DNA of 64,000 nucleotides, taken from assembly GCA_002813105.2 (NCBI GenBank), contig CP017966.2:434001-498000 (forward strand), read 5' to 3'. The notes beneath the pieces were generated by a model. That model was not told the DNA's origin. It saw nothing but the letters and a program-made list of their open reading frames with translations, and did not search any database. The DNA comes from Methanosarcinales archaeon Met12. Its GTDB lineage: Archaea; Halobacteriota; UBA148; JAJOKI01. Below are positions 3,323 through 57,860 of the stretch, piece after piece (the stretch's first letter is position 1; each line of letters opens with the position of its first letter). Position numbers and translations under genes: made by a program.

Positions 3323-4597
3323 TTATATCTCCCTGGGGTCGGTTATACTGCCCGTAATCGCAGACGCAGCTGCAGTAGCTGGCGAGCACAGATATACGAA
3401 TGCCTTGGCGCTGCCCTGCCTGCCCTTGAAGTTCCTGTTGGAAGTTGCAAGCCCGACCTCTCCGTCCCCGAGAAGCCCAAACGAGCCTCCCATGCATGGG
3501 CCGCAGCATGGTGCTTCCACAAGCGCGCCAGCCTCTACGAAACATTCGATGAATCCTACCTCCAGCGCCTTTAAATATTCCATGCGCGATGCCGGTATGA
3601 TTATCACGCGGACGCCATTGGCAATATGATGACTACCGAGAATCTCCGCAACGACTTTCAAATCCTCAAATCGACCATTGGTACACGAGCCGATGAATAT
3701 CTGGTCGATTTTCGTGCCCTCAACATCACTCACGTTTTTGACGTTGTCCACGTTGTGCGGACAGGCTATCTGCGGCCGAAGGTCAGATATATCGTATTCA
3801 TGATGCTGTGCATAGTTGGCATCTTCGTCGCTGCACCAATGCAAATCGAGTTTGAAGTCGGGAATGCACTGCTTCAGATATTTCTCGGTCTCTCTATCAG
3901 GCTCGATGATGCCTACTGCCCCGCCCATCTCGATCGCCATGTTGGACATCGTCATCCGCTCGGAGATGCTCATGTTCCTCACCGTTGGTCCAGCATACTC
4001 GCAGGCAGAATACGCCGCCCCGTCTGCACCCACGTCGCCGATTATGTGCAGTATCACGTCTTTTGAGTACACTCTGTCAGGCAGTTTGCCTTCAATCTCA
4101 AACCGGATGGACTGCGGAACCTTAAACCATAATTTTCCAGTAGCCAGAGCAGACGCCATATCCGTGGAGCCGACGCCAGTAGAGAATGCGCCGAGTGCGC
4201 CATACGTACAGGTGTGCGAATCCGACCCGATTATCAGGTCCCCTGAGTTTACATGGCCTTTTTCAGGCATTACCTGGTGGCACACCCCCTCATACACGTC
4301 ATAATTCAGGATGCCTTGTTCATCCGCAAACTTCCTGAGCATTATATGATTATTGGCCGCATTCAGCGAGTCGGCTGGAACCTGATGGTCAAACAACATC
4401 ACGATTTTGCTTGGGTCCCACACGCGCTTCTTTTTCCGACCTGCCATGATCTCGTAGAACCCATGGATGGCAAGCGGTCCGGTAATGTCGTGAATCATGG
4501 CACAATCTATATCGGCAAATACAAATTCGCCTGCCACAACGGGTTTTCCAGATGCTCGAGAGAATATCTTCTCAGTAATAGTCAGACCTGTGGACAT
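3323..4597 (-). CDS. leuC: 3-isopropylmalate dehydratase, large subunit (LeuC/HacA family)
   Basis: The [4Fe-4S] aconitase-family large subunit, 424 residues from the ATG at 4595-4597 ([20 protein letters not shown]). The reading frame stays open upstream but would invade the divergent promoter, and family members begin here. It shows the DHQVPA segment, [22 protein letters not shown], and three cluster cysteines, one in [13 protein letters not shown] and two in PCCGPCMGG. With LeuD it performs the isomerisation step of leucine synthesis. A homoaconitase role in coenzyme B synthesis is the alternative. leuD lies about 0.8 kb downstream past the HicBA insertion. Confidence 0.9.
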
Positions 4598-54855: not shown

Positions 54856-55728
54856 GTGTTTAAAGGTGTAGCGCCAGCGCTCGTCACACCATTTACAAAG
54901 GATAACAGGGTGGATGAGGAGGGGCTCAGGGAGAATATCGAATTCGTCATAAAAAATGGCGTATCCGGAATCGTTCCAGCAGGATGCACTGGAGAGGCTG
55001 CTACGCTCTCTTTTCAGGAGCAGAAAAGGGTCATCGAGGTGGCAGTAGACGTTTCTACGGTTCCCGTCATCGCTGGGACAGGGTCTAATAATACAAAAGA
55101 GGCGGTCGAACTCACAAAATACGCAGAGGACGCTGGCGCAGATGCCGCAATGTTGATATCTCCATATTATAACAAGCCGACTGATTCGGGTTTAATTAAA
55201 CATTATGAAACCGTCGCCAATTCGTGTGACATTCCAATACTGTTGTACAACGTGCCATCCAGAACCGGGATAAACATGGGGGCGCACATATCAGCTGAAT
55301 TGGCGAAAATTGAAAACATCGTCGGTATCAAAGAAGCCAGCGGGAACATATATCAAATTTCCCAAATCATCAGGCTAACACAAGGTCAGAACTTCGCCGT
55401 GTTTTCTGGAGACGATGGCATGACCTTTCCAATTTTAACGCTTGGCGGGAAGGGCGTGATATCGGTTGCGGCCAACATAATCCCAAAGCAGATAAGTGAC
55501 ATGACATCCGCATTCTTCGAGGGAAATATCGATGCAGCAAGAAGGATTCACCACGCCACATCTCCTCTGATGCATGCCCTGTTTCTGGAGACCAATCCAA
55601 TTCCAGTAAAGACTGCAATGAACTTGATGGGCTTGGCAGCTGGCGGACTTAGATTGCCTTTGACCCCCATGGACGAAGAAAATGTAGCCAAGTTGCGTTA
55701 CACTATGGAATCGTTGGGATTATTATGA
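54856..55728 (+). CDS. dapA: 4-hydroxy-tetrahydrodipicolinate synthase
   Basis: A 290-residue class I aldolase barrel. GCTGEAATLSFQEQKRVIE contains the active-site Thr pair, NVPSRTGINM the catalytic tyrosine region (LLYNVPSRTG), and the Schiff-base lysine is in GIKEASGNIYQI. It condenses pyruvate with aspartate semialdehyde. GTG start 54856 with GGCGGAG before it, inside eS17. It overlaps dapB by 4 nt. Confidence 0.96.
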   Translation: MFKGVAPALVTPFTKDNRVDEEGLRENIEFVIKNGVSGIVPAGCTGEAATLSFQEQKRVIEVAVDVSTVPVIAGTGSNNTKEAVELTKYAEDAGADAAMLISPYYNKPTDSGLIKHYETVANSCDIPILLYNVPSRTGINMGAHISAELAKIENIVGIKEASGNIYQISQIIRLTQGQNFAVFSGDDGMTFPILTLGGKGVISVAANIIPKQISDMTSAFFEGNIDAARRIHHATSPLMHALFLETNPIPVKTAMNLMGLAAGGLRLPLTPMDEENVAKLRYTMESLGLL

Positions 55729-56450
55729 TTGGTGTTGCAGTTGCCGGTGCATCTGGGCGGATGGGCAAACTGATCATCCAGAATGTCGCCAGTGCGGACG
55801 ACATGAAGCTTGTAGCTGCATTCGATGTCAAAGGAATTGGCACGAATGTTGGAGATGTGCGTATATCGGATGCAAAGGATGTCCGCAGAGTGCTGATGGA
55901 AACCAACCCGGATGTCTTGGTCGACTTCACGATTGCGCATGCAGCGGTAGAAAATGTAAAATCCGCTGCCGAGCGCGGCGTGAATCTGGTGGTCGGCACG
56001 ACGGGGTTCACACAAGAACAACATGCAGAGATGGAGAGGGCAATCGATAAAAAAGTGGCGGCAGTCATCTCTCCCAATTTCTCGGTTGGCGTGAACGTCT
56101 TTTGGAAAATAATTACAAATGCGGCAAGGCACCTCAGTGGTTGCGATATCGAGATCGTCGAGGTGCATCATCGCCATAAGAAAGATGCGCCAAGCGGTAC
56201 TGCGATAAAAGCGGCAAAATTAATCGGTAAAGCGTTGGGAGGGGTGGAAATACCCGTTCACTCCATAAGAAGTGGGGATATCGTTGGCGACCATATCATA
56301 TTATATGCCGGGGATGGAGAGCGAATGGAGATCAAACATCAGGCACACAGCAGGCAGGCATTCGCATCCGGCGTCATGATAGGCATACGGTGGGTTGTGA
56401 ATGCGGAAAAAGGAATACATTCGATGGACGATGTGCTTGGAATATGCTAA
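55725..56450 (+). CDS. dapB: 4-hydroxy-tetrahydrodipicolinate reductase
   Basis: A 241-residue enzyme: GVAVAGASGRMGKLII, the NAD(P) loop, then VVGTTGFTQEQHAEM, and EIVEVHHRHKKDAPSGTAIKAAKLI with the catalytic histidine and lysine. It reduces the DapA product. The ATG shares ATGA with the dapA stop. A 10-bp hairpin follows its stop at 56454-56484. Confidence 0.96.
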   Translation: MIGVAVAGASGRMGKLIIQNVASADDMKLVAAFDVKGIGTNVGDVRISDAKDVRRVLMETNPDVLVDFTIAHAAVENVKSAAERGVNLVVGTTGFTQEQHAEMERAIDKKVAAVISPNFSVGVNVFWKIITNAARHLSGCDIEIVEVHHRHKKDAPSGTAIKAAKLIGKALGGVEIPVHSIRSGDIVGDHIILYAGDGERMEIKHQAHSRQAFASGVMIGIRWVVNAEKGIHSMDDVLGIC

Positions 56451-56453
56451 ACC

Positions 56454-56484
56454 ATGTTCTGTCCCCGAATTTACGACAGAACAT
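56454..56484 (+). terminator. Hairpin after dapB
   Basis: ATGTTCTGTC and GACAGAACAT pair perfectly (10 bp) around an 11-nt loop, just after the dapB stop at 56450. No T run follows, so it may be a transcript-end or processing element. Its 3' part, GAACATTA, is one copy of the target duplication of the adjacent element. Confidence 0.5.
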
Positions 56485-56486
56485 TA

Positions 56487-56576
56487 GGCAGTGTTAACTT
56501 AAGGACTACCTGAAACGTAAAACAGGTAGGTGCTATGCGTTTTGAAATCGTCATTTCTGCTTAAGTTAACAGCACC
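56487..56576 (+). mobile_element. 90-bp miniature inverted-repeat element (MITE) with 8-bp target duplication
   Basis: The left end reads GGCAGTGTTAACTTAAG and the right end, on the other strand, GGTGCTGTTAACTTAAG: 17-bp inverted termini with 14 matches. An exact 8-bp duplication, GAACATTA, flanks it (56479-56486 and 56577-56584). Internally a hairpin CTACCTG/CAGGTAG and another GAAAT/ATTTC give a three-way folded structure. Ends starting GG and an 8-bp duplication are features of IS6-family elements, so a non-autonomous derivative is likely. It carries no gene. Confidence 0.85.
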
Positions 56577-56644
56577 GAACATTAAACCAAAAAAGATAAA
56601 TATTATAGTTCCATAGTGCAAATATTCCAAAAAGGTGATGTAAT

Positions 56645-56815
56645 ATGGTGATAAAGATTGATTTAGATGCGTGTATTGGATGTGGAGCGTGTGTTGACGA
56701 GTGTCCAGTGGATGCGATTTCATTGAACGATGATGTGGCTTCGGTCGATGAGGGTTTGTGCACCGATTGTGGCATGTGCATCGATGTCTGCCCGATCAAT
56801 GCAATTTCATTTTGA
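56645..56815 (+). CDS. Two-cluster [4Fe-4S] ferredoxin
   Basis: A 56-residue protein with two classical cluster motifs: [12 protein letters not shown] near residue 10 and [12 protein letters not shown] near residue 39. It is a small soluble electron carrier. GGTGATGTAAT precedes the ATG, and a TATA-like box AAAGATAAATATTATAG lies about 45 nt upstream, so it has its own promoter after the MITE. It is 10 nt before asd on the same strand and probably shares a transcript. Confidence 0.92.
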
Positions 56816-56825
56816 TGTTGAAGCA

Positions 56826-57860
56826 ATGGTTAAAGTAGGGGTCATAGGAGCAACTGGCGCAGTAGGCCAGCGATTCGTTCAGCTGTTAGCGGAGCATCCG
56901 TGGTTCGAGTTGGTAGCGTTAGCCGCTTCTGGGCGGAGTGCTGGAAAGAGATATGGAGATGTTGCAAACTGGCGACTGGGCACCCCCATTCCAGAGAATG
57001 TGAGGGATTTTGAAGTTCTGCCGACTGACCCAAAACAGGTAGATGTAGATGTCGTATTTTCAGCATTGCCCGCGTCGATAGCAAGGGAAGTCGAGCCCAG
57101 ATTTGCGGAGGCGGGATTTGTAGTAGCCAGCAACGCCAGCTCGTACAGAATGGAGAGTGATGTGCCCCTCATGATTCCCGAGGTCAATCCAGATCATCTG
57201 GGTCTAATCAAGATCCAGAGAGATGCTCGCAATTGGGATGGATGCATAATCACCAATCCAAATTGTACTACGATCGTGATGGCACTCACGCTGAGACCAT
57301 TGATGCGCTTCGACATAGAAAGAGTATACGTAGCAACGATGCAGGCCGTCTCGGGTGCGGGTTATGAAGGAGTGGCGTCAATGACAATCCTCGATAACGT
57401 CATTCCATACATCAAAGATGAGGAAGAGAAGGTAGAGACTGAGGCGCAGAAGATCTTGGGCAAATTCGATGGTTCTAAAGTGAAAAATGCTGACTTTTCG
57501 GTTAGCGCAAGTTGCCATAGGGTTCCTGTGATGGATGGACATACTGAGGCAATATGGGTAATGATGAGGGACAACCCCACAATAGAGGAGGTCAGGAATG
57601 CATTTCGCACATTCAGATGCGATGAAGTAAAAGGACTTCCGACCGCTCCAGAAAAACCGATCATCGTGCACGATGCAGACGACAGACCACAGCCGAGAGT
57701 AGATAGAAATGCCGGAAGGGGGATGAGCGTGTCGGTCGGGAGGGTCAGAGAACATGCTGGCGGCGTCAAATACATCGCGATGGGGCACAACACGATTAGG
57801 GGTGCAGCAGGCGCATCCGTGTTGAACGCAGAGCTCCTCGTTAAGAAGAAGATGATTTAG
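56826..57860 (+). CDS. asd: Aspartate-semialdehyde dehydrogenase
   Basis: A 344-residue NADP-dependent enzyme, archaeal type: [20 protein letters not shown], the active-site cysteine in [17 protein letters not shown], and [19 protein letters not shown] with the catalytic histidine. It supplies aspartate semialdehyde to DapA. ATG 56826 is used, since the open frame upstream lies inside the ferredoxin gene. It closes the lysine set with dapA and dapB nearby and dapL-lysA-dapF at 13.7-17 kb. Confidence 0.95.

Follow-up and report, generated by a model that had tools for sequence, protein, structure and literature searches.

The stretch of DNA analysed here (the window; 64,000 bp) comes from Methanosarcinales archaeon Met12 and corresponds to positions 434001-498000 of its genome, G000, a single contig of 1,067,436 bp that is 97% complete. 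Positions in the contig are marked G000 below, and all others are those of the window. Three genes on the forward strand frame the locus: dapB (55725..56450, +), a gene for a two-cluster ferredoxin of 56 aa (56645..56815, +) and asd, which encodes aspartate-semialdehyde dehydrogenase (56826..57860, +). These are the flanking genes named in a preliminary description of the sequence, which placed a small transposon between dapB and a ferredoxin-asd unit.

The space between dapB and the ferredoxin gene contains an element of 90 bp (56487..56576, no strand assigned) with no gene inside it. Its left terminal inverted repeat, GGCAGTGTTAACTTAAG (56487..56503, +), matches its right one, which reads GGTGCTGTTAACTTAAG inward on the minus strand (56560..56576, -), at 14 of 17 positions; the mismatches are at positions 3-5 and a 12-bp core is perfect. 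The 8-bp sequence GAACATTA adjoins the element on both sides (56479..56486 and 56577..56584, unstranded). Element, ends and exact duplication thus agree to the base with what had been proposed. The window was scanned exhaustively for 8-bp sequences that recur without mismatch, in the same orientation, at a distance of 60-300 bp. Of the 493 pairs, only the GAACATTA pair has inner 17-base ends that agree in inverted orientation at no fewer than 11 positions. The target was also said to be the arm of a hairpin, and a 10-bp perfect hairpin does lie downstream of dapB (56454..56484, unstranded; 56454-56463 pairs with 56475-56484). Its 3' arm overlaps the target duplication, and the insertion has left it intact.

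Copies in the host genome

As anticipated in the preliminary description, the element is found elsewhere in the genome. Six full-length copies start at G000 98880 (-), 490487 (+, the window copy), 513616 (+), 645879 (-), 652092 (+) and 701092 (-). The window copy is 100% identical to those at 98880-98969 and 701092-701181, the remaining three are 98% identical, and two of the six measure 91 bp. Target duplications of 8 bp are exact at five copies: CTTGTAAT at 98880, GAACATTA at 490487, ATCGATGT at 645879, TGACGCAG at 652092 and CACAGAGA at 701092. At the sixth, 513616, the two sides (ATTTTATA/AGTTTATA) match at 7/8 positions. A short fragment of the element at G000 551576, in a context common to the same-genus species G001, looks like an old remnant. 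The exact core of the element has no match in the viral contigs or genome contigs searched, and a similarity search of plasmids gave none either.

Of the six copies, four are in intergenic positions. At 98880 the insertion breaks a reading frame that encodes PDIIFYYKDKPYYLECK, which we take to resemble the core motif of PD-(D/E)XK nucleases; a DNA methyltransferase gene adjoins it, and the frame is open once the flanks are joined. Besides carrying the insertion, this restriction-endonuclease-like gene (G000 98570-99360) appears to be frameshifted further on. The effects of the element are local: dapB is separated from ferredoxin-asd in the window, and the restriction-endonuclease-like gene is broken at the other site.

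Insertion beside a hairpin arm holds for the window copy and one other, only weakly above expectation. At two of the six sites there is overlap with the arm of a perfect hairpin (8 bp or longer), compared with 0.85% of sites placed at random in the window and 3.4% of sites in non-coding DNA; a binomial estimate against the 3.4% rate is roughly 0.015, with a threshold picked after looking. For that reason we do not claim a preference for hairpins, which is not established.

The copy at 652092 sits inside another dispersed hairpin repeat. A dispersed repeat of ~52 bp, roughly TGTCGCAGATnnnnnATCTGCGAGAGTTGTAATTCCnnnnGGAATTTCAACA, is seen at G000 652150-652235. It contains two hairpins, in which the arms seem to vary in concert from copy to copy, and it has no Rfam match of its own. 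Further copies are found in L267, L268, L269, L270, L271, L272, L273, L275, L278, L280, L282, L283 and L285, and its CTGCGAGAGTTG core is present eight times exactly in G000 and also in G001, G003, G005 and G008. In L268, a tRNA covariance match of 158 bp (1419-1576), double the normal length, includes a copy of the ~52-bp repeat, and it looks as if the repeat lies in a tRNA intron or has gone into a tRNA gene; ARAGORN predicts no tRNA at this place. Near 3526-3700 of L051 (G001, contig C79), the dispersed hairpin repeat appears to interrupt a copy of the 90-bp element near its right end, the reverse of the nesting in G000.

Terminal repeats and the likely transposase

The ends of the element were attributed to an IS6-family transposase supplied in trans. 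The end motif GGYRSTGTTAACTTAAG was scanned over 84,980 species genomes, where many of the matches are due to chance; among the matches listed, Nitrososphaeraceae and one Thermoplasmatales genome recur. Several of the listed matches are one end of a complete element (L139, 672 bp; L136, 674 bp; L133, 689 bp; L199, 843 bp). The motif of the right terminal repeat is thus also the boundary of entire IS6 elements, which come from Nitrososphaeraceae and Thermoplasmatales. Matches of their proteins to the NCBIfam IS6 model NF033587 have E-values of 4e-30, 1e-29, 1e-24 and 2e-31, scores that are under the curated cut-off, yet far above those of any other family. In the same order as the host, an IS6 transposase fragment at the edge of contig C21 of G008 (NF033587, E 9e-17) adjoins the near-identical end ACTGTCAACTTAAGGA. 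These findings, together with two host remnants with the same ends, bear out the attribution to IS6. In a small comparison, some of the complete elements in other archaea are without matching flanks, whereas all six copies of the 90-bp element have them.

An alternative is an origin from a different DDE family in which 8-bp duplications and GG ends occur as well, for instance IS1 or IS1595. IS1 ends look loosely similar to those of the element, and the IS1 model is a distant second match for the same transposases. The IS6 E-values of the transposases with these ends (1e-24 to 1e-31) stand against ~1e-5 to 1e-8 at best for IS1, however, and Pfam assigns them the IS240/IS6 domain (PF13610), which makes such an origin very improbable. 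We conclude, with a probability of about 93%, that the segment is an IS6-type miniature transposon (MITE) that is non-autonomous and consists only of two transposase-binding ends and ~56 bp of filler, which is non-coding. Duplications of 8 bp and GG ends are common among archaeal IS6 elements (PMC6807381, PMC7986276). The archaeal members have been argued to form a family of their own (PMC6807381), and ‘IS6-type’ here therefore means the archaeal group as filed today.

From the sequences, the copies are best explained by the action in trans of an IS6-type transposase. A DDE transposase of this family, made elsewhere in the cell, would bind ends of the GG...CTGTTAACTTAA type and join them to a staggered cut in the target DNA, and repair of the gaps would leave the 8-bp duplication. 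The simple insertions could each derive from a cointegrate that then recombined, or from direct insertion without replication, and movement would now have stopped because the helper has decayed to remnants.

While complete IS6-type elements with the same ends exist in other archaea, only remnants are present in G000, which has no intact IS6 transposase and no PF13610 or NF033587 match. The main remnant (G000 514074-514399) begins GGTACTGTTAACTTAAA and encodes scraps that resemble the N-terminal region of IS6 transposases: one protein is matched in two segments, at 47% over 30 aa and at 67% over 12 aa (E 7e-4), a short and modest similarity from a search that covered the window and fetched stretches of G000. 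The second remnant (G000 419320-419403) corresponds at 85-90% to two stretches of the first that are not adjacent, as would be expected of an internally deleted relative. A third candidate (G000 98453; 29 bp, E 0.007) was too weak to be counted. The element copy at 513616 is ~370 bp away from the main remnant (G000 513616-514399 spans both). Outside the ends, the filler of the MITE bears no resemblance to that remnant, so a simple deletion of that element does not account for the MITE.

The helper thus appears to have lived once in the host genome and to be dead now and, with only two broken remnants and no intact transposase, the element looks orphaned. The helper is either lost, within the roughly 3% of the genome that is not assembled, or on an unsampled plasmid or virus. 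No transposase like the G008 fragment was found in the viral contigs searched, and a plasmid search with that fragment returned only distant haloarchaeal relatives (34-43% identity).

Empty sites, folding and host function

The sites of three other copies can be compared in G001, in which the readable part of dapB is 95% identical to that of the host in protein; the window site is outside this comparison, as the G001 contig ends inside dapB. The element is absent at all three. Sites 6 and 4 are the clearest: at site 6 the left flank is 88% identical and the element and the surrounding repeat are both missing, and at site 4 there is an AT-rich spacer without the element. The spacer at site 2 is also without it, but the surrounding region is shortened as well. 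Given the absence at these sites, the element most likely moved in the host lineage after the split from G001. In genomes of another family of the order, dapB and asd are together with no element between them; in G008, which belongs to that other family, the ferredoxin gene lies between dapB and asd and starts ~10 bp after dapB. The empty sites sought in relatives are therefore present, and six copies, target duplications, empty sites and the lack of coding capacity all agree with the designation as a MITE. Divergent copies of the element are present in G001, G008 and G004; clear target duplications were not found for the copies in G001 and G008.

The same comparison bears on a different explanation, in which the segment is a structured RNA gene or a regulatory hairpin of dapB/asd and not a transposon. 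The element does fold well for its composition (z -2.6 on the plus strand and -3.9 on the minus strand), with a fold that is dominated by the inverted ends. Two further hairpins had been described inside it, which find no support as functional structures: among eleven copies from four genomes, pairing and covariation are not above those of shuffles, and the element has no Rfam match above threshold. The lack of covariation in the internal hairpins speaks against an RNA gene, and this reading was rejected. It is also contradicted by copies in unrelated contexts with duplicated targets and by the dapB-asd loci of relatives, which are without the element, and we regard it as almost certainly wrong.

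It is conceivable that the MITE has acquired a host role at this locus, for example by terminating transcription or by acting as a barrier that keeps dapB apart from ferredoxin-asd, since it can fold in RNA and separates two units that are close together in G008. Against this, the other copies are in unrelated places, one of them inside a gene, and no structure is kept beyond the ends; such a role has a slim chance at most, and the element probably has no host function.

Comparison with known elements

IS6-type MITEs have rarely been recorded. ISfinder files MITEBth2 and MITEHarch3 under the IS6 family (PMC6807381), and the 2021 review of the family gives two, of 227 and 336 bp (PMC7986276). 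Compared by description only, those in ISfinder share with our element two IS6-type ends, the lack of a transposase gene and dependence on a helper; the 90-bp element differs from the 227- and 336-bp MITEs in its size, its archaeal lineage, its six copies and the lack of an intact helper.

A second family of tiny elements, with ends nearly the same as those of the 90-bp MITE, was seen in the Thermoanaerobacteraceae MAG GB_MAG15_131. Elements of 54 bp (L163, near 1880-1933) and 216 bp (L173, near 3515-3730) begin GGTAGTGTTAACTTAAG and have exact 8-bp flanking duplications, GATTCTAG and ATTTACTA.

The typical products of IS6 transposition are cointegrates that are resolved by host recombination, and alternative routes have been proposed (PMC7986276). 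IS6 elements have long been reported as forming cointegrates only, yet the 90-bp elements here are clean single insertions. One idea, which we think unlikely, is that with very short elements the archaeal IS6-type transposases bypass the usual cointegrate and make simple insertions directly. If this were true, six clean 90-bp insertions within a single small chromosome would document it in nature. For an archaeal IS6 transposase, the element offers a natural substrate of minimal size, from a methanogen-related lineage.

Among archaeal IS6 insertion sequences (ISH14, ISH29 and ISHarch types), many have GG ends, G at position 7, an end consensus of ~18 bp and 8-bp duplications (PMC6807381), and the end motif GGYRSTGTTAACTTAAG is also found at the ends of L139, L136 and L199. 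In contrast to the 90-bp non-coding element, those insertion sequences are ~700-850 bp long and encode a transposase. The element is thus an ordinary kind of parasite, an IS6-type MITE, in an unusually small version; otherwise it follows a familiar pattern in which a transposon decays and a small derivative persists. The Sulfolobus MITEs SM3A and SMN1 are likewise short, non-coding and archaeal, and SM3A, like the element described here, persists in strains without a functional helper transposase; these two differ in depending on the transposases of ISC1058 and ISC1733 and in their lengths of 164 and 320 bp (PMC3718332).
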